NCBI RefSeq assembly: GCF_030127145.1 | Contig: NZ_CP126158.1 | Span: 930,001-994,000, forward strand | DNA: 64,000 bases | DNA from: Halobaculum halobium | GTDB taxonomy: Archaea > Halobacteriota > Halobacteria > Halobacteriales > Haloferacaceae | Direction: 5' to 3' | Part shown: piece by piece, positions 10,828-63,468 of the stretch | How positions within the stretch are numbered: position 1 is the stretch's first letter | Layout: the number at the start of each line of letters is the position of its first letter | The notes under the pieces: model-generated | The model's database searches: none | What the model was told of the DNA's origin: nothing | What the model saw: only the letters and a program-made list of their open reading frames with translations | Translations under genes and position numbers: made by a program

Positions 10828-11052
10828 GCCCACCACTTGGCGCGTTCGGGTGTTAACCGTTCCACTGGAATGCCGGCGTCGCGCACGACCGCGACGGTGA
10901 GGACTGTAAGACGGTGCTGTATCGCGATCGGCATCGCTGTCGAGTGAATCGAACAGGCGACTCGCGGCGGCGTCCGTCGGTGAGTCGCACACCCGCAGCA
11001 CGACGGACGGTCGTTCTCAGCGCACGCGACGGGGTGGTCCCGCCCTCGTATT

Positions 11053-11718
11053 TCAAGGCTCGTACGAGAGCAGCACGCCGTCGTCGACGCGGGTCACGTC
11101 GGTCAGCGCCAGCCGCGGGAAGTCGTCGACGAAGCCCTCTCCGTCAGCCAGCGTCGGCGCCTCGCGGCCGCCGATCACCAGCGAGCCGACGTAGAGGGTG
11201 AGTTCGTCGACGAGGCGCTCGTCGAACAGCGAAAATAACAGCTCGCCGCCACCCTCGACCATGACGCGCTCGATTCCCTCGGCTTCGAGCGCGCCAAAGG
11301 CGGCCGTGAGGTCGACGCGGCCGTCGGCGTCTCCCGCGACCAGAATCTCCGCGCCTGCGTCGCGGAGGGCGTCGAGCCGTTCGTCGTCCGCCTCATCGCT
11401 CACGAGGAGGTACGTCGTCGCCTCGTCGTCGAGGATCCGCGCGTCTGGCGGGGTTCGCGCGCGCGAGTCCGCGACGACGCGGGCGGGGTTCTCGGAGCGA
11501 GCGTTGCGGAGGCGTTGGACGCGGCGGTCCGCTTCGTCGATCGTGAGGTGCGGATCGTCCGCGAGGACGGTGCCGACGCCGACGAGAACGGCATCGGCGG
11601 CCGCGCGGATCCGGTCGACGCGGTCGAAGTCGTCGGCGCCGCTGATGCGGACCTGCTCGCGGCGTCGCGACGAGAGCTTCCCGTCGACGGAGACGGCGGC
11701 GTTGACGTGGACGTACAC
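11053..11718 (-). CDS. arfC: 2,5-diamino-6-(ribosylamino)-4(3H)-pyrimidinone 5'-phosphate reductase (RibD C-terminal family)
   Basis: 221 residues from GTG 11718. It reduces the ribose of the GTP-derived diaminopyrimidine to ribityl in archaeal riboflavin and F420 synthesis. The N-terminal strand reads YVHVNAAVSVDGKLSS. Later motifs are VLVGVGTVLADDPHLT, RVVADSRARTP and the terminal VMVEGGGELLFSLF, all typical of the archaeal RibD_C reductase. The deaminase domain of bacterial RibD is absent, as expected in archaea. It is 26 bp downstream of the S10-like gene on the same strand, suggesting one transcript. Confidence 0.88.
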   Translation of the reverse strand: MYVHVNAAVSVDGKLSSRRREQVRISGADDFDRVDRIRAAADAVLVGVGTVLADDPHLTIDEADRRVQRLRNARSENPARVVADSRARTPPDARILDDEATTYLLVSDEADDERLDALRDAGAEILVAGDADGRVDLTAAFGALEAEGIERVMVEGGGELLFSLFDERLVDELTLYVGSLVIGGREAPTLADGEGFVDDFPRLALTDVTRVDDGVLLSYEP

Positions 11719-20635: not shown

Positions 20636-22252
20636 ATGGTACGACTGCTTCGACGGAGTTTCGCGGCCAAGCTCTTGGTCGGCTTCGCACTCACGACGGG
20701 TGCGGTAGTCGGCTACGGGCTCGTGACGCGCAACGTCGTCGGGACGATACTGATGGCGACGGCCGGACAGGTAGTGCTCGGGGCGTATCTGGGGACGAAC
20801 ACCGTCGTGTCCATGCGGACGCTCGAAGAGCAGACCGAAGCGATCGCCGACGGCGACTTCGACGTCGAGGTTCGAACCTCGCGCGTCGACGAACTCGGCC
20901 GGGTGTACAGCTCGGTCGACCGAATGCGCCGGTCGCTCGCGGCGCGGATCGACGAGGCCGACGCCGCGCGATCGGAGGCCGAGGCGGCGGAGGCGCGCGC
21001 CCAGTCGCTGGCTGACGACTACCAGCGGACGGCCGAGGACTACGCCGACACGATGCGTGCGGTCGCCGACGGCGACCTCCGGCGGCGGATCGACGTCGAC
21101 CGCGAGCACGACGCGATGGAGACGGTCGGAACCGCGTTCAACGACGCCGTCGACGAACTGGAAACCGCGCTCGCGAGGGTCGACACCTTCGCCGGCGACG
21201 TGGCCGACGGCGCCGCCGACGTGCGCACGGCCGCAGAGCGCATCGACGAGCGGACCGACGACGTGCTCGCGGCGACCGACGACATCGACGCCGCGACCGA
21301 CGAGCAGCGCGAGACCGCCCGGACGGGAGCAGAGGAGACGGCCGACCTCTCTGCGACCGCCGAGGAGGTCGCCGCGACGACCGAGTCGCTCGTCGAGCGG
21401 ACCGACGAGGCGGCGGACGCCTCTGCGGAGGCCCGTTCGGCCGCGGGCGACGCGATCGAGACGATGGGCGACGTCGACGAGACGATGGGCGAGGCGGTCG
21501 ACCGGATCGAGACGCTCGACGAGGCGACCGCCGAGATCACCGAGGCGGCCGAGCTCATCAGGGACATCGCCGAGCAGACGAACATGCTCGCGCTCAACGC
21601 GAGCATCGAGGCCGCGCGCGCCGGCAGCGACGCCGGAAACGCCGGCGACGGCTTCGCGGTCGTCGCCGAGGAGGTGAAGGGCCTCGCCGAGGACACCGGC
21701 GACCGCGCAGACGCGATCGCCGAGATGATCGACGAGGTGCGCACCGAGACCGAGCGCGCGGTCGAGGCGATCCGCGCGACCAGCGAACAGGTGAGCGACG
21801 GGTCGACGACCGTCGCCGAGGCCGTCGACCGCCTCGACGACATCGCCGAGGCGGTGGACGACCTCGACCAGGGCGTCCGCGAGATCAGCGACGCGACCGC
21901 CGAGCAGGCCTCGGCCGCGGCGGGCGTCTCCGAGACGATCGACGACCTCGCGGAGAACAGCGACCGGACGGCCGACCGCGCCGCCGAGGCGGACGAGGCC
22001 GCAAGCGAGCAATCGAACGCCGTCGACGCGGTCGTCGAGGAGTCGGAGACGTTCCGTGCGCGCTCGGACGACCTGCTCGACGTGCTCGCGGCGTTCGACG
22101 TGCGCGAATCGCGGGCGGGCGGGGCCGGAACCTCCGCGGAGAGCGACGCCGTGCCCTCGTCCGGGAGACCCGGATCGGCGACGACGGCGATGAGTGACGG
22201 CGGCGACCCGGGAAGTCCCGCCGAGCGGGCCGACGGGGGTGACCGCCGATGA
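20636..22252 (+). CDS. htrI: HtrI-like phototaxis transducer (two-TM methyl-accepting protein)
   Basis: 538 residues. Two membrane helices (about 10-30 and 34-57) are joined by a loop of only a few residues (VTRN), so there is no extracellular sensor domain. They lead into a HAMP domain (about 58-110), a second HAMP-like region (about 140-175) and a long coiled coil. The signalling tip reads IAEQTNMLALNASIEAARAG, followed by DGFAVVAEEVKGLA. This is the architecture of a sensory-rhodopsin transducer that controls CheA. It overlaps the rhodopsin start by four bases (ATGA), as halobacterial htr-sop pairs do. Length is close to that of H. salinarum HtrI. HtrI versus HtrII is judged from the rhodopsin partner. 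Confidence 0.88.
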   Translation: MVRLLRRSFAAKLLVGFALTTGAVVGYGLVTRNVVGTILMATAGQVVLGAYLGTNTVVSMRTLEEQTEAIADGDFDVEVRTSRVDELGRVYSSVDRMRRSLAARIDEADAARSEAEAAEARAQSLADDYQRTAEDYADTMRAVADGDLRRRIDVDREHDAMETVGTAFNDAVDELETALARVDTFAGDVADGAADVRTAAERIDERTDDVLAATDDIDAATDEQRETARTGAEETADLSATAEEVAATTESLVERTDEAADASAEARSAAGDAIETMGDVDETMGEAVDRIETLDEATAEITEAAELIRDIAEQTNMLALNASIEAARAGSDAGNAGDGFAVVAEEVKGLAEDTGDRADAIAEMIDEVRTETERAVEAIRATSEQVSDGSTTVAEAVDRLDDIAEAVDDLDQGVREISDATAEQASAAAGVSETIDDLAENSDRTADRAAEADEAASEQSNAVDAVVEESETFRARSDDLLDVLAAFDVRESRAGGAGTSAESDAVPSSGRPGSATTAMSDGGDPGSPAERADGGDRR

Positions 22253-23031
22253 TTGGCGGCCTCGACGCGGCGACGATCGAGACGCTCGTGTTCGCGAGCG
22301 GGACCGTCAGCATGCTCGTCGGCGTCGTGGTCGTCGGGTGGTTGTTGGGTGACGACGCGCTCGACGACGACGCCGGGAAGTTCCGGTACCTGCTGATCGT
22401 TCCCGCGTTCGCCGTGGTGGCGTACGCGGCGATGACGCTCGGATTCGGACGGCTCACCGTCGGCGGCGTCGAGGCGGAGGTCGCGCGATACCTCGACTGG
22501 TTCGTCACGACCGCAGTGATGGTGTGGTACGTCGGTTACGTGGTCGACGTGGAACGACGGTGGATGCTGACGGCCGCGGTCTTCGACGGCCTGTTCATCG
22601 CGGGCGGGTGGGTCGCAACGACGACACAGGGGACCGTGAAGTGGGCGGCCTTCGCGGGCGCCTGCCTCGCGTTCGCGGCCACCATGTACGTGCTGTTCCG
22701 GGTGTACCCGCGAAGCGCCGGCGAGATGACTCCGGAGCGCGAGCGGCTGTTCCTCCGGCTGCGCAACCAAAGCAGCGTCATCTGGCTCGTCTATCCGGTC
22801 GTCTGGCTCGCCAGCGGCGCCGGCTTCGGACTGGTGTCGACGCTCGGGACCGTGATGCTGTTCACGTTCCTCGATGTGGCGTCGAAGGTGCCGTACACGT
22901 GGGTCGTCTACGAACACCGGGGCGTATTCGGCGAGACGCAGTTGGCCGAGTACGCCGGCGGCGACGGCGATGCCGCCGCCGGTTCGGGTGACGCGACGAC
23001 GACCGACCGCCCCGTCGCATCGGCCGACTGA
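22249..23031 (+). CDS. sopI: sensory rhodopsin, SRI-like
   Basis: 260-residue seven-helix microbial rhodopsin. Retinal Schiff-base lysine is K213 in FLDVASKVPYTW, with D209 four residues earlier. Helix C reads RYLDWFVTTAVMVWY: R80, D83 (counterion), T87, and Y94 at the bacteriorhodopsin Asp96 site, so it lacks a pump's proton donor. Helix F is VIWLVYPVVWL. From memory of H. salinarum SRI, the KVPY after the lysine, the GTxKWA loop and helix C match SRI better than SRII. The SRI His166 (KNH) aligns with Q174 (RNQ), and the helix-C proline is A89. Partnered with the upstream transducer. The last ~30 residues are an acidic tail. Confidence 0.92.
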   Translation: MIGGLDAATIETLVFASGTVSMLVGVVVVGWLLGDDALDDDAGKFRYLLIVPAFAVVAYAAMTLGFGRLTVGGVEAEVARYLDWFVTTAVMVWYVGYVVDVERRWMLTAAVFDGLFIAGGWVATTTQGTVKWAAFAGACLAFAATMYVLFRVYPRSAGEMTPERERLFLRLRNQSSVIWLVYPVVWLASGAGFGLVSTLGTVMLFTFLDVASKVPYTWVVYEHRGVFGETQLAEYAGGDGDAAAGSGDATTTDRPVASAD

Positions 23032-58577: not shown

Positions 58578-59801
58578 TTATCGGTTACTCGGTAGTGATC
58601 GTAGAGATATACCCGACGGCGCGCTCACGCGGACGCCCGCTCGGTTCGGCGCCGGACCAGCCGCCCGAACGCGAGCGTGGGGAACCGCGGATCGACCCGG
58701 CTCGGGGGCGACCCGGACCCCGGCGTCATCGACCCGGACGCGCTCGACGACGCCGGTCTCGGCGAGTTCGTAGAGGAACCGTTCGACGGTTGCGGCCGTC
58801 AGGTCGAGGCGGTCGGCGATCCGTACGGCGCACTCGCCGACCGGCGCGCGCTCGTCGGGCGGGAGGTCGACGAGGCACGCCAGCGTCCGAACCCGGTTAT
58901 CCGGGAGTGCGAACACCCGCCCCAGCGGGACGCACGGCCACGGGACGGCGGCCATCCCCGCCTCCACGTCCGCGTCGTCGACAGCGGGGTCGCCGTCCTC
59001 GGACGCGGACTCGACGGCGCCTAACAGCGCCGAGAGCGCGACCCCGGCGTCGCCCTCCGCCCACTCCGCGAGCCGGCGGATCGCTGAGTGCGCGAGCGCG
59101 CCCTGCCCGAGTCCGGCGTCGGCCCGCGCCGCGAGGACGTCAGTGAGTGCCGCGCGGGAGTACGGGTCCACGTCGATCACGTCGGCGTCGGCCGGAACGC
59201 CGACTTCCTCGGGCTCGGCCCGCCCGATGGCGAGCCACGCGAACGCGCCGTCGACGCCGTCGAGGCGGTCGGCGACCGTCGCCACGTCCACCGTCTCGGG
59301 CTCGCCGACGTGGTCGGCCACGACCACGACCGGGCCGGCGCCGCGGACGCACCGCTCCAGTCGCTCGTGGAGCTCGTCGGTGCCGACGCCGCGGCGCGGA
59401 ACCGACTCGGCGACGAGCGCGTCCAACACCGCGTGGGCGAACTCGAACGCCGAGTCGTCGGCCCGCAGGTCGACGCGGACGAACGAGACGTCGGGTGCGC
59501 TCCCGCCGCGCGTCGTGGTGAAGACAGCGTCGCGCGGCGGGGAGAGCGACGCCGACAGCCGCTGTGCGAGGGCGACCGTCACGGCGGACTTCCCCGTGCC
59601 GCCGGGCCCGTGGAGGTATCCGTTCGGCGGGGCCCGTCCGTCGAAGACGGGGTCGAAGTGGTCGAGCAACCGCTCGATGAGCGGTCCTCGGCCGATCGGT
59701 TCCTCCGGGTGCCAGATCGGGCTCAACTGTTGCTCGTCGAGCACGAACCTGTTGCGGTCGCCGGTGCGTTGACGGCGGGCGATTCGGTCCTCGATGTTCA
59801 T
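58578..59801 (-). CDS. Orc1/Cdc6-like AAA ATPase with degenerate Walker B
   Basis: 407 residues from ATG 59801. The N-terminal part matches Orc/Cdc6 (PIGRGPLIERLLDHF before Walker A GPGGTGKS at 65-72). At the Walker B position the sequence reads VVVVADHVGE, D163-H164 instead of Asp-Glu, so hydrolysis may be lost. A C-terminal winged helix includes VGECAVRIADRLDLTAATVERFLYEL. It lies 44 bp upstream of glpA and divergent from glpK. A regulatory rather than replication role is suggested by position. I see no convincing origin repeats. Confidence 0.8.
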   Translation of the reverse strand: MNIEDRIARRQRTGDRNRFVLDEQQLSPIWHPEEPIGRGPLIERLLDHFDPVFDGRAPPNGYLHGPGGTGKSAVTVALAQRLSASLSPPRDAVFTTTRGGSAPDVSFVRVDLRADDSAFEFAHAVLDALVAESVPRRGVGTDELHERLERCVRGAGPVVVVADHVGEPETVDVATVADRLDGVDGAFAWLAIGRAEPEEVGVPADADVIDVDPYSRAALTDVLAARADAGLGQGALAHSAIRRLAEWAEGDAGVALSALLGAVESASEDGDPAVDDADVEAGMAAVPWPCVPLGRVFALPDNRVRTLACLVDLPPDERAPVGECAVRIADRLDLTAATVERFLYELAETGVVERVRVDDAGVRVAPEPGRSAVPHARVRAAGPAPNRAGVRVSAPSGISLRSLPSNR

Positions 59802-59914
59802 ATCTCGTGGGTTCTGGGTGGTGGTGTGCGCCCGGAGGCGCTCGTTGCCGACCGTTAGTCGGGTGGGGTTCTAATCGGCCCGGTTCTCGGTCAGCCGGGC
59901 CGACACACTATGTT

Positions 59915-59939
59915 TACTGGTGCTTGGTTAGTACCAGTA
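59915..59939. promoter_or_regulatory. palindromic operator candidate before glpK
   Basis: TACTGGT and ACCAGTA arms (7 bp, perfect) separated by 11 bp, immediately upstream of the glpK TATA box. A regulator of the glp genes (GlpR-type or the nearby Orc-like protein) may bind. Confidence 0.5.
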
Positions 59940-59942
59940 ACG

Positions 59943-59950
59943 TTTATAAT
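59943..59950 (+). promoter_or_regulatory. TATA box of glpK
   Basis: TTTATAAT. Start of transcription is expected near 59975, giving a ~44-nt leader, unlike most genes here. Confidence 0.55.
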
Positions 59951-59978
59951 CGTTCACTATATATCACTTGGTATCGGC

Positions 59979-59996
59979 GTCCCGCCGGAGCGGGAC
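59979..59996 (+). promoter_or_regulatory. hairpin in the glpK mRNA leader
   Basis: GTCCCGC and GCGGGAC form a perfect 7-bp stem with a CGGA loop, 22 nt before ATG 60019. A GGAGG follows at 60004-60008, so the hairpin sits just before the ribosome binding site. Confidence 0.45.
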
Positions 59997-60018
59997 TCCG
60001 CACGGAGGATACCCATAC

Positions 60019-61551
60019 ATGCCAGACACGTACGTCGGCGCGATCGATCAGGGAACGACAGGGACGCGATTCATGGTGTTCGATCACGCCGGACAGGTGG
60101 TCGCCAACGCCTACGAGAAACACGAGCAGATCTATCCGGAGCCGGGGTGGGTCGAGCACGACCCGACGGAGATCTGGGAGAACACGAAGGCGGTCGTCAC
60201 GGCGGGGCTCGCCGACGCGGGGCTGGAGGCGAGCCAGCTGGAGGCGCTCGGGATCACCAACCAGCGCGAGACGACCGTCGTATGGGACGCCGACAGTGGC
60301 CGACCCGTCCACAACGCGCTCGTCTGGCAGGATCGCCGCACCACCGACCGCGTCGAAGAGCTGCAGGCCGAGGACAAGGTCGAGTGGATCCGCGGCAAGA
60401 CGGGCCTCGAAGCGGACGCGTACTTCTCGGCGACCAAGACAGAGTGGATCCTCGACAACGCCGAGCCGCTGAAGCTGCAGTCGTCTCGCGGGGGCGGCCT
60501 CCGCAAGCGCGCCGAGGCGGGAGAGCTGCTGATGGGCACGATCGACAGCTGGCTCATCTACAACCTGACGGGCAACCACATCACCGACGTCTCGAACGCC
60601 TCGCGGACGATGCTGTACAACATCCGCGATCTGGCGTGGGACGACGAACTGCTCGCGGAGTTCGACGTGCCCGAGTCGATGGTGCCGGAGGTCCGACCGT
60701 CGTCCGACGAGTCCTACTACGGACACACGGACGCCGACGGCTTCCTCGGCGCCGAGGTCCCCGTCGCGGGCGCACTGGGCGACCAGCAGGCCGCGATGTT
60801 CGGCCAGACGTGCTTCGACGAGGGCGACGCGAAGAACACCTACGGCACCGGGTCGTTCTACCTGATGAACACCGGCACCGAGGCGGTCGAGTCCGACCAC
60901 GGGCTCCTCACGACGATCGGCTTCCAGCTGTCGGGCGAACCCGTCCAGTACGCGCTGGAGGGGTCGATCTTCGTCACCGGCGCCGCCATCGAGTGGCTCG
61001 AGGACGTCGACCTCATCAACAACGCCGCCCAGACAGCGGAGCTCGCGCGGTCGGTGGACTCGACCGACGGCGTCTACATGGTCCCGGCGTTCACGGGGCT
61101 GGGCGCCCCGCACTGGGACGGTCGCGCCCGCGGCACCATCGTCGGGATGACCCGCGGGACCCGCAAGGGCCACATCGTCCGGGCGACGCTGGAGGCGATC
61201 GCCTACCAGACGCGTGACGTTGCCGAGGCGATGGAGGCCGACTCCGGCGTCGAGACCACCTCGCTTCGGGTGGACGGCGGCGCGGTCAAGAACGACTTCC
61301 TGTGCCAACTCCAGTCGGACATCATTCAGACCGAGATCGCGCGCCCCGAGGTCGACGAGACCACGGCGCTCGGCTCGGCGTACGCCGCCGGCCTCGCCGT
61401 CGGGTACTGGGACTCCGTCGACGACCTGCGGCAGAACTGGCAGGTCGATCGGGAGTTCACCCCCGAGATGGAGGGGGCGGACGCCGACGCGATGTACGAC
61501 CGGTGGGGAGACGCCGTCGAACGCTCGCTGAACTGGGCCACGGAGGACTGA
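60019..61551 (+). CDS. glpK: glycerol kinase
   Basis: 510 residues. FGGY kinase with GAIDQGTTGTRFMVF, ITNQRETTVVWD, VWQDRRTTD, TFGLGAPHWD-type FTGLGAPHWDGRARG, and the ATP-site ALEAIAYQTRDV. Phosphorylates glycerol to sn-glycerol-3-phosphate, the only known entry of glycerol in Haloferax. The C-terminal VDGGAVKNDFLCQLQSDI is the canonical signature. A 7-bp gap joins it to the membrane-protein gene downstream. Confidence 0.97.
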   Translation: MPDTYVGAIDQGTTGTRFMVFDHAGQVVANAYEKHEQIYPEPGWVEHDPTEIWENTKAVVTAGLADAGLEASQLEALGITNQRETTVVWDADSGRPVHNALVWQDRRTTDRVEELQAEDKVEWIRGKTGLEADAYFSATKTEWILDNAEPLKLQSSRGGGLRKRAEAGELLMGTIDSWLIYNLTGNHITDVSNASRTMLYNIRDLAWDDELLAEFDVPESMVPEVRPSSDESYYGHTDADGFLGAEVPVAGALGDQQAAMFGQTCFDEGDAKNTYGTGSFYLMNTGTEAVESDHGLLTTIGFQLSGEPVQYALEGSIFVTGAAIEWLEDVDLINNAAQTAELARSVDSTDGVYMVPAFTGLGAPHWDGRARGTIVGMTRGTRKGHIVRATLEAIAYQTRDVAEAMEADSGVETTSLRVDGGAVKNDFLCQLQSDIIQTEIARPEVDETTALGSAYAAGLAVGYWDSVDDLRQNWQVDREFTPEMEGADADAMYDRWGDAVERSLNWATED

Positions 61552-61557
61552 TCGTGC

Positions 61558-62634
61558 ATGCACGACCTGCTACTCCAGGTTCCCCTCCTCGGAATGGAGT
61601 GGGAACCGTTCGTGTTGCTGCTCATCACGGCGCTCGCGGGCGGTGCGTTCGGCGCCGCCATCGGCGCGCTGCCAGCGTTCATCTTCACGGGCTTCGTCGT
61701 CTTCCTGGGTGAGGGGCTCGCGATCCTCCAGCGGGAGATCGGCACACTCCCCGGTGTCAACGGGGGCGAGCTCGCGGCCGGAGTGACCGGGGTGATCGGC
61801 TTCGGCGCCGTCACTGGACCGCACATCGCCTTCGCCGGCGGCGTCGCCGCCTCCGCGTACGCGGGCAAGAAGTACCCCGAGATGGAGCCCGAGGGGTGGG
61901 ACTACCACTTCGGGAAGAACATCCTGTACGCGTTCGGCACCAAACCTGACATCCTCGCGGTCGGCGCCGTCTTCGGCGTACTCGGGATGTTCATCAACCA
62001 GATCGGCGCCGCGATTGGGACTCCCACGGACACGATCGCGCTGTCGGTCGTACTCACGGCGCTGATCGCCCGCGTCGCGTTCGGCTACCCGCTGGTCGGC
62101 AAGGCCGCTGGCGGGGGCCTGCTCGACATGTCGCCGTTCGAGCGGGAGGAGCCACGCGCCGCCGCCGACGGCGGCGAGATCCCCGAAGAGCACGCGGGGC
62201 GGCTCGCCACCGAACCGTGGCTACCCCACCAGTACAAGTGGGCGGGCGTCGCGACGATCGGCCTCGTGGGCGGCATCCTCGGCGGGTACATCTGGATTCA
62301 GACGGGGAGCATCTTCCTCGGCTACGGCATCTCGGCGATCAGTCTGCTGTTCCTCCAGTTGGGCGTCGAGAAGATCCCGGTCACCCACCACATCACGCTC
62401 ATCGGCGCCGTCGGCGCGGTCGTCGTCGACCCCATCGCCGGGAGCGTCGTCGCGCTGCTGGCCGCGGGGGCCTTCGGCATCATCAGCGGACTGCTGGGAG
62501 AAGTGACCCAGCGGCTGCTGTACGCCCACTCCGGTACCCACGTGGACCCGCCCGCGATGGCGATCGCCATCGCGATGCTCGTCATCGCGGTGCTGTCGCT
62601 GCTGGGCGTCATCCCCAACGCGGGCTACCTCTGA
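61558..62634 (+). CDS. polytopic membrane protein co-encoded with glpK, possible glycerol transporter
   Basis: 358 residues with about nine hydrophobic segments, several Gly/Ala-rich (GGAFGAAIGALPAFIF, VGAVFGVLGMFINQIGAAIG). A hydrophilic loop lies at ~185-215. It is not an aquaporin (no NPA motif seen). The gene begins 6 bp after the glpK stop, so it is in the glpK operon. In Haloferax a membrane protein gene sits at the same place and has been proposed to move glycerol; direct evidence is lacking. Confidence 0.7.
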   Translation: MHDLLLQVPLLGMEWEPFVLLLITALAGGAFGAAIGALPAFIFTGFVVFLGEGLAILQREIGTLPGVNGGELAAGVTGVIGFGAVTGPHIAFAGGVAASAYAGKKYPEMEPEGWDYHFGKNILYAFGTKPDILAVGAVFGVLGMFINQIGAAIGTPTDTIALSVVLTALIARVAFGYPLVGKAAGGGLLDMSPFEREEPRAAADGGEIPEEHAGRLATEPWLPHQYKWAGVATIGLVGGILGGYIWIQTGSIFLGYGISAISLLFLQLGVEKIPVTHHITLIGAVGAVVVDPIAGSVVALLAAGAFGIISGLLGEVTQRLLYAHSGTHVDPPAMAIAIAMLVIAVLSLLGVIPNAGYL

Positions 62635-62757
62635 GTCGCCAGCCGATCGAACGGCGTCGCCGGCGAACGCCGCGACGCCCCTCGCGCCCCGGTTCCTCCC
62701 TCCCTCGCGGGACGTTCGCCGCCGAACTTATCCCCGCGAGCGACCTCTCCACGCCCG

Positions 62758-63468
62758 ATGAAGGTCGCACTCGTCACCGTCGGCGACGAACTCCTCGCGG
62801 GCGACACCGCGAACACGAACGCCTCGTGGCTCAGCGAACGGCTCACCGCCAGCGGCGTCGCCGTCGAGCGCGTGACGACCGTCCCCGACCGCGTCGACGA
62901 CATCGCGGGCGTCGTCGGGGAGTACCGCGACGCCTACGACGCGGTGCTGGTCACCGGCGGCGTCGGTCCGACGCACGACGACGTGACGATGGACGGCGTC
63001 GCCGCCGCCGTCGGCGCCGACCTCGCGGCCAACGACGAGGCCCTCGCGTACCTCACCGAGCACGGCGGCTACGCGGCCGAGGACCTCACTGAAGGGACCA
63101 CGCACCTCCCGGCGGGCGCACGCGTCATCCACAACGAGGAGGGCGTCGCGCCGGGCTGTGTGATCGATTCGGTGTACGTGTTCCCCGGCGTTCCCGTCGA
63201 GATGAAACCGATGTTCGAGTCGGTGGCCGCGGAGTTCACCGGCGACGAACCGCACACGGCCGTCGTCGAGACCGATGAACCCGAATCGCGTCTGCTCGAC
63301 CGGCTCGCGACGGTGCGCGAGCGGTACGACGTCGCGGTCGGCTCCTACCCCGGCGACACAGTCCGGGTGAAGTTCACGGGCACCGACGAGGCGCTCGTCA
63401 CCGACGCCGCCGACTGGTTCCGCGAGCGCGTCGAGACGGCGGAGTCGCCGCCGGCGGCCGAGGACTGA
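62758..63468 (+). CDS. MoaB/CinA-like molybdopterin-binding domain protein
   Basis: 236 residues. The MoCF-binding fold shows VALVTVGDELLAGDTANTNA at the start, VLVTGGVGPTHDDVT, and the late VFPGVPVEMKPMFE. It corresponds to the N-terminal domain of CinA (nicotinamide-nucleotide/ADP-ribose pyrophosphatase) without the C-terminal amidase. Role uncertain: cofactor repair is possible given nnr elsewhere in the window. Single gene. Confidence 0.88.
   Translation: MKVALVTVGDELLAGDTANTNASWLSERLTASGVAVERVTTVPDRVDDIAGVVGEYRDAYDAVLVTGGVGPTHDDVTMDGVAAAVGADLAANDEALAYLTEHGGYAAEDLTEGTTHLPAGARVIHNEEGVAPGCVIDSVYVFPGVPVEMKPMFESVAAEFTGDEPHTAVVETDEPESRLLDRLATVRERYDVAVGSYPGDTVRVKFTGTDEALVTDAADWFRERVETAESPPAAED

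Follow-up and report, generated by a model that had tools for sequence, protein, structure and literature searches.

The window, i.e. the whole stretch of 64,000 nucleotides analyzed here, encodes a sensory rhodopsin of the SRI group that carries glutamine at the position of the cytoplasmic His166. This glutamine is the rule of a whole branch of receptors and not a peculiarity of the window protein. We consider it fairly probable that the protein represents a phototaxis receptor of the SRI group that lacks the cytoplasmic histidine, and that it would pass its Schiff-base proton to D83 and act with an HtrI-type partner.

Features of the locus are summarized in Table 1. The stop codon of the transducer gene and the start codon of the rhodopsin gene overlap in an ATGA sequence, which points to translational coupling, and the coupled arrangement is found in all eight members of the Gln branch. 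The receptor matched the Pfam family Bac_rhodopsin with 118.5 bits (cut-off 24.6); by motif, the only other rhodopsins of the window genome are one BR-like and one HR-like protein. An AlphaFold2 model of the receptor (pLDDT 80 on average and above 85 in most helical blocks) was aligned (Foldseek, VIA-align) with SRII at Z 30 and an rmsd of 1.7-2.0 Å, and with BR at Z 29. The model confirms the seven-helix fold; with Z scores of 29-30 throughout, the structural alignments do not separate SRII from BR, and the subfamily is not decided by the model. The structural matches listed did not include 9wxr, the SRI-HtrI entry; this is no argument against an SRI-type relation.

Table 1. Coordinates of the receptor-transducer locus within the window
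Feature	Position	Strand	Remarks
HtrI-type transducer, cognate	20636..22252	+	538 aa; upstream of rhodopsin gene
Gln-type SRI-group sensory rhodopsin	22249..23031	+	260 aa; ATG at 22249, TGA ends 23031
Codon 89 GCA (Ala)	22513..22515	+	replaces helix-C proline codon
Codon 174 CAA (Gln)	22768..22770	+	replaces His166 codon

Residues were numbered on a reference protein (L051 of genome G227), which we take to be the SRI of H. salinarum and in which D76, Y87, N165, H166, D201, K205 and R215 fall exactly at those numbers. In this alignment D76, Y87, N165, D201 and K205 correspond to D83, Y94, N173, D209 and K213 of the window receptor, respectively, while H166, P82 and R215 are replaced by Q174, A89 and H223. 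The sequence-only reading had named K213 as the retinal lysine, D83 as the counterion and Y94 as a retained residue, and had reported RNQ (Q174) in place of His166 and A89 in place of the proline that follows the TT pair in nearly all relatives; the alignment agrees with it at each of these positions. Retinal binding is predicted, with K213 and D83 at the positions of the SRI lysine and counterion. The position of the BR proton donor Asp96 is occupied by Y94, and this proton-donor feature of BR is absent.

An alignment slip hiding an adjacent histidine was ruled out: helix F of the window receptor aligns without gaps with SRI, SRII and BR, and no neighbouring conserved histidine could serve as a substitute. 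Since glutamine occurs in eight separate genomes, Q174 is not a sequencing error either. The observations that would have told against the sequence-only reading were not made: no other conserved histidine occupies the position, and glutamine is found there in none of the 40 His-type SRIs.

A search for orthologs covered the family (170 genomes) and the order (392 genomes). It revealed eight, with scores of at least 288 bits, the next score being only 183 bits. They are encoded by seven of the 11 sampled species of Halobaculum and by "Candidatus Halobonum tyrrellensis". All eight carry glutamine (RNQ) at the His166 position, whereas each of the 40 other SRI-group proteins has histidine (KNH, QNH, RNH or TNH); SRII, BR and HR have Leu, Ile, Val, Phe or Met. 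When the 392 genomes of the order were searched with a degenerate DNA motif for Gln-type receptors, 7 gave a match, all of the window's genus or Halobonum; this search found no Gln form outside these two genera. Plasmid records yielded distant rhodopsins only. Residues fixed in all eight orthologs and absent from the 40 His-type SRIs include V99, A109, T125, F142, F150 and R170, as well as A211, T217, W218, V219 and E222. F142 lies at the position of the helix-E histidine (H135 of HsSRI), where the His-type SRIs have His (35 of 40) or Tyr (5 of 40). This is probably the site of His131 of the Salinibacter SRI (SrSRI), a residue with a role in chloride binding (PMC3274258). For Halobaculum, the open-access literature searched yielded no article on a sensory rhodopsin, and the only mention was a single line on Halobonum.

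In a maximum-likelihood (ML) tree of 89 rhodopsins, the Gln branch and the 40 His-type SRIs (including L052, presumably the characterized SRI of Haloarcula vallismortis) form one SRI group (100/99), within which the Gln branch is a clade of its own (100/96). The eight transducers likewise form a single clade (SH-aLRT 99) inside the HtrI side, apart from HtrII. As the same eight members group together, receptor and transducer have stayed together. The idea of a distinct subfamily, voiced in the sequence-only reading, is upheld by both trees. Because the histidine is present in none of the eight Gln-branch proteins versus 40/40 of the others, we file them as a sister branch in the SRI group and not as canonical SRIs. 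Membership in SRII, suggested by RLRN and Ser212, was rejected by the receptor and transducer trees.

In the best ML tree, the 40 His-type SRIs form a group with 99/95 support, and the Gln branch is its sister; a reduced tree with long rows left out agrees (93/82 for the His-type group). In a joined tree, the Gln branch was grouped with five early QNH/RNH SRIs; the cost is only 3.3 log units, and the AU test does not reject this topology (p-AU 0.115). The earlier description of the receptor as having lost the histidine therefore holds for its absence, while a loss is unproven, given the sister placement, the outgroups without histidine and the failure to reject the joined tree. His166 may be a later gain, since the outgroups lack it and the His-type SRIs as a whole form the sister group of the Gln branch in the best tree. 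It is a serious possibility, somewhat short of an even chance, that His166 was absent from the ancestor of SRI and that the attractant photochemistry evolved only afterwards, among the His-type SRIs. The absence of the histidine from all outgroups and the sister position in both best trees favour this history, the joined tree weakens it, and it is compatible with either model of signalling discussed below. Two long-branched rhodopsins with Leu at the 166 position (L108 and L123) are placed next to the SRI group as its closest outgroup; they come from a genome (G159) that encodes eight rhodopsins.

Three known systems come closest to the window pair. With SRI (H. salinarum, Haloarcula vallismortis; fusion PDB 9wxr) it shares, besides the tree group, the overlapping htrI-sop gene order, the counterion, the lysine, N165, the helix-C Tyr and an HtrI-type transducer. 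It differs from SRI in Gln for His166, Phe for the helix-E His, His for R215, TWV for VYF in helix G and L53/N56 in the transducer, and the identity is about 34-43%. SRII (Natronomonas pharaonis and haloarchaeal relatives) likewise has no histidine at the 166 position and provides the closest solved folds, and Ser212 of the window receptor places a hydroxyl residue at the site of NpSRII Thr204. However, the receptor lies outside the SRII clade, its transducer is HtrI-type and not HtrII-type, and none of the SRIIs compared has Gln at the 166 position. SRM/SRIII of Haloarcula likewise departs from the standard pair of sensory rhodopsins, SRI and SRII. The Haloarcula RNF sequences, taken as SRM-like, share Trp at the BR L95 position with the window receptor, but have Phe at the 166 position. 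HtrM of Haloarcula lacks the signalling tip (PMC6450946), in contrast to the window transducer.

The transducer is composed of two TM helices with a short external loop, a HAMP domain and an MCP signalling domain whose EQTNMLALNASIEAARAG tip is intact. Its TM-HAMP part scored 70 bits against the HtrI half of PDB 9wxr versus 53 bits against HtrII. Sites at which mutations invert the signal are HtrI Glu56 and SRI Asn165/His166, and suppressor sites include HtrI Asn53 and SRI Arg215 (PMC3274258). In all eight Gln-branch transducers N53 is replaced by Leu and E56 by Asn; together with the receptor changes, these pairs are altered at two inverting and two suppressor sites (the latter HtrI N53 to Leu and SRI R215 to His). 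Partners of Halobacterium-type SRIs have kept N53/E56. In the partners of QNH SRIs position 53 is mostly Thr and position 56 is Asn, Ala or Thr. As E56 is unconserved even among the partners of many His-type SRIs, the mutant rule of H. salinarum may not transfer.

In the attractant SRI of H. salinarum, His166 is presumably the acceptor of the Schiff-base proton. Because this cytoplasmic residue is Gln in the whole branch, the proton is expected at D83. Starting from a resting state connected to the extracellular side, the Schiff base would be deprotonated in light and its proton would move outwards to D83, the extracellular route of SRII and BR; in SRII the counterion Asp75 accepts the proton (PMC3274258). 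Alternatively, Gln could relay the proton via water. The receptor would work with its HtrI-type transducer, with output into the CheA/CheW/archaellum pathway. The simplest outcome would be a one-colour sensor instead of the colour-discriminating switch of SRI, a receptor type marked by orange absorption, a slow photocycle and attractant responses alongside repellent ones to near-UV light.

Altered signalling, which the sequence-only reading had proposed, is plausible by analogy with SRI-HtrI mutants (PMC3274258). The sign of the signal is unreadable from the sequence, since changes have occurred at inverting as well as at suppressor positions. A repellent response comes close to an even chance and is slightly likelier than an attractant one, for which the chance is nearer one in three; the remainder falls to a mixed response or none. 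Polarity may have been re-balanced through the changed HtrI N53 (Leu) and SRI R215 (His).

It is somewhat unlikely that the protein is an ordinary SRI attractant receptor, in which His166 has become dispensable through compensating changes (HtrI L53 and N56, receptor H223 and T217/W218/V219 of helix G) and the cytoplasmic-connected conformer and the attractant sign are maintained. The replacement of the suppressor positions HtrI N53 and SRI R215 (PMC3274258) in 8/8 pairs is what such compensation would predict. The Gln-type receptor is also the only sensory rhodopsin in five of the eight genomes, and the window genome encodes BR and HR as well, a setting in which attraction is useful. However, all 40 His-type relatives have retained the histidine, and we know of no SRI that gives an attractant signal without it. 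A more specific form of the preferred reading, with D83 as the proton acceptor, is that the pair is held in an extracellular-connected, SRII-like (repellent) state and represents the form of SRI that predates the attractant His. We regard this as improbable, at roughly one chance in five; if true, the attractant response would be a later invention within SRI.

The two-conformer model of the SRI signal sign was derived from laboratory mutants of residues that include His166 and HtrI E56/N53. The Gln branch offers a conserved variant from nature in which these positions differ in receptor and transducer alike, and thus a natural test of how attraction to light versus its avoidance is decided. 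Its proton path and phototaxis sign bear on the generality of the H. salinarum model, and the branch could help to date the rise of the attractant mechanism.

The helix-C proline was the other residue reported as missing. A89 is real, but the change does not extend to the whole branch: Ala is found in three of the eight Gln-type proteins (the window protein, the ortholog from G014 and that of Halobonum), and the other five have kept Pro. The proline change is separate from, and younger than, the Gln state. The same three proteins share V51, M91, W93, F116, G119, T145, M146, S175 and S176; these residues are absent from the corresponding sites of the 45 other SRI-group proteins. In BR numbering, positions 49, 91, 93 and 118 are changed in this sub-branch (Val for the Ile of SRI at 49, P91 to A, L93 to M and M118 to F) and are otherwise invariant across the SRI group. 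Ser212 (NpSRII Thr204, BR Ala215) is found in the window protein alone, the other seven having Ala. Since several of the changed sites line the retinal pocket, a colour shift is likely: the pocket of the sub-branch is further remodelled, and its absorption maximum would be displaced. Ala at the proline site is structurally tolerated, as the P91A mutant of BR has been crystallized and its structure solved (1q5j). Four SRII-type receptors of Halobaculum (L063, L064, L068 and L069 of G012, G011, G010 and G016, respectively) have TTL instead of TTP in helix C; this is an independent loss of the proline. Their genes adjoin those of long HtrII-like transducers (upstream frames of ~760-784 aa).

A comparison of the window gene with its nearest ortholog gave dN 0.106 and dS 0.46 (ratio ~0.2), which indicates purifying selection. 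All eight Gln-branch genomes encode CheW and archaellin domains. That the receptor is a mere remnant, decaying or non-phototactic, is very improbable, since the reading frames and transducers are intact, all chromophore residues are present in 8/8 proteins and the genes of all eight are under purifying selection. Three observations could be read in favour of decay: two Halobaculum genomes (G013 and G015) have no rhodopsin at all, one species has a BR without the retinal lysine (L060), and the genome paper on Halobonum reported no flagellar genes (PMC3861417). However, Halobonum does have archaellin-domain and CheA/CheW-domain matches, and the lone relative without CheW and archaellin matches (G018) also lacks a sensory rhodopsin.

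The Halobonum matches, located on contig C8 of G021 (10910-11425 and 59422-63324), are above the curated cut-offs and are at odds with the "no flagellar genes" of that report (PMC3861417). L060 (G014:C1:224373-225032, minus strand) is a long-branched opsin of the BR clade with an open frame, in which Thr replaces the retinal lysine (AATVGFG) and Gly replaces the Asp85 counterion; no other BR was found in the same Halobaculum species (G014). Two further opsin-like proteins without the retinal lysine, L103 and L107 of G368, apparently belong to the haloarchaeal opsin-related proteins (PMC4915679).
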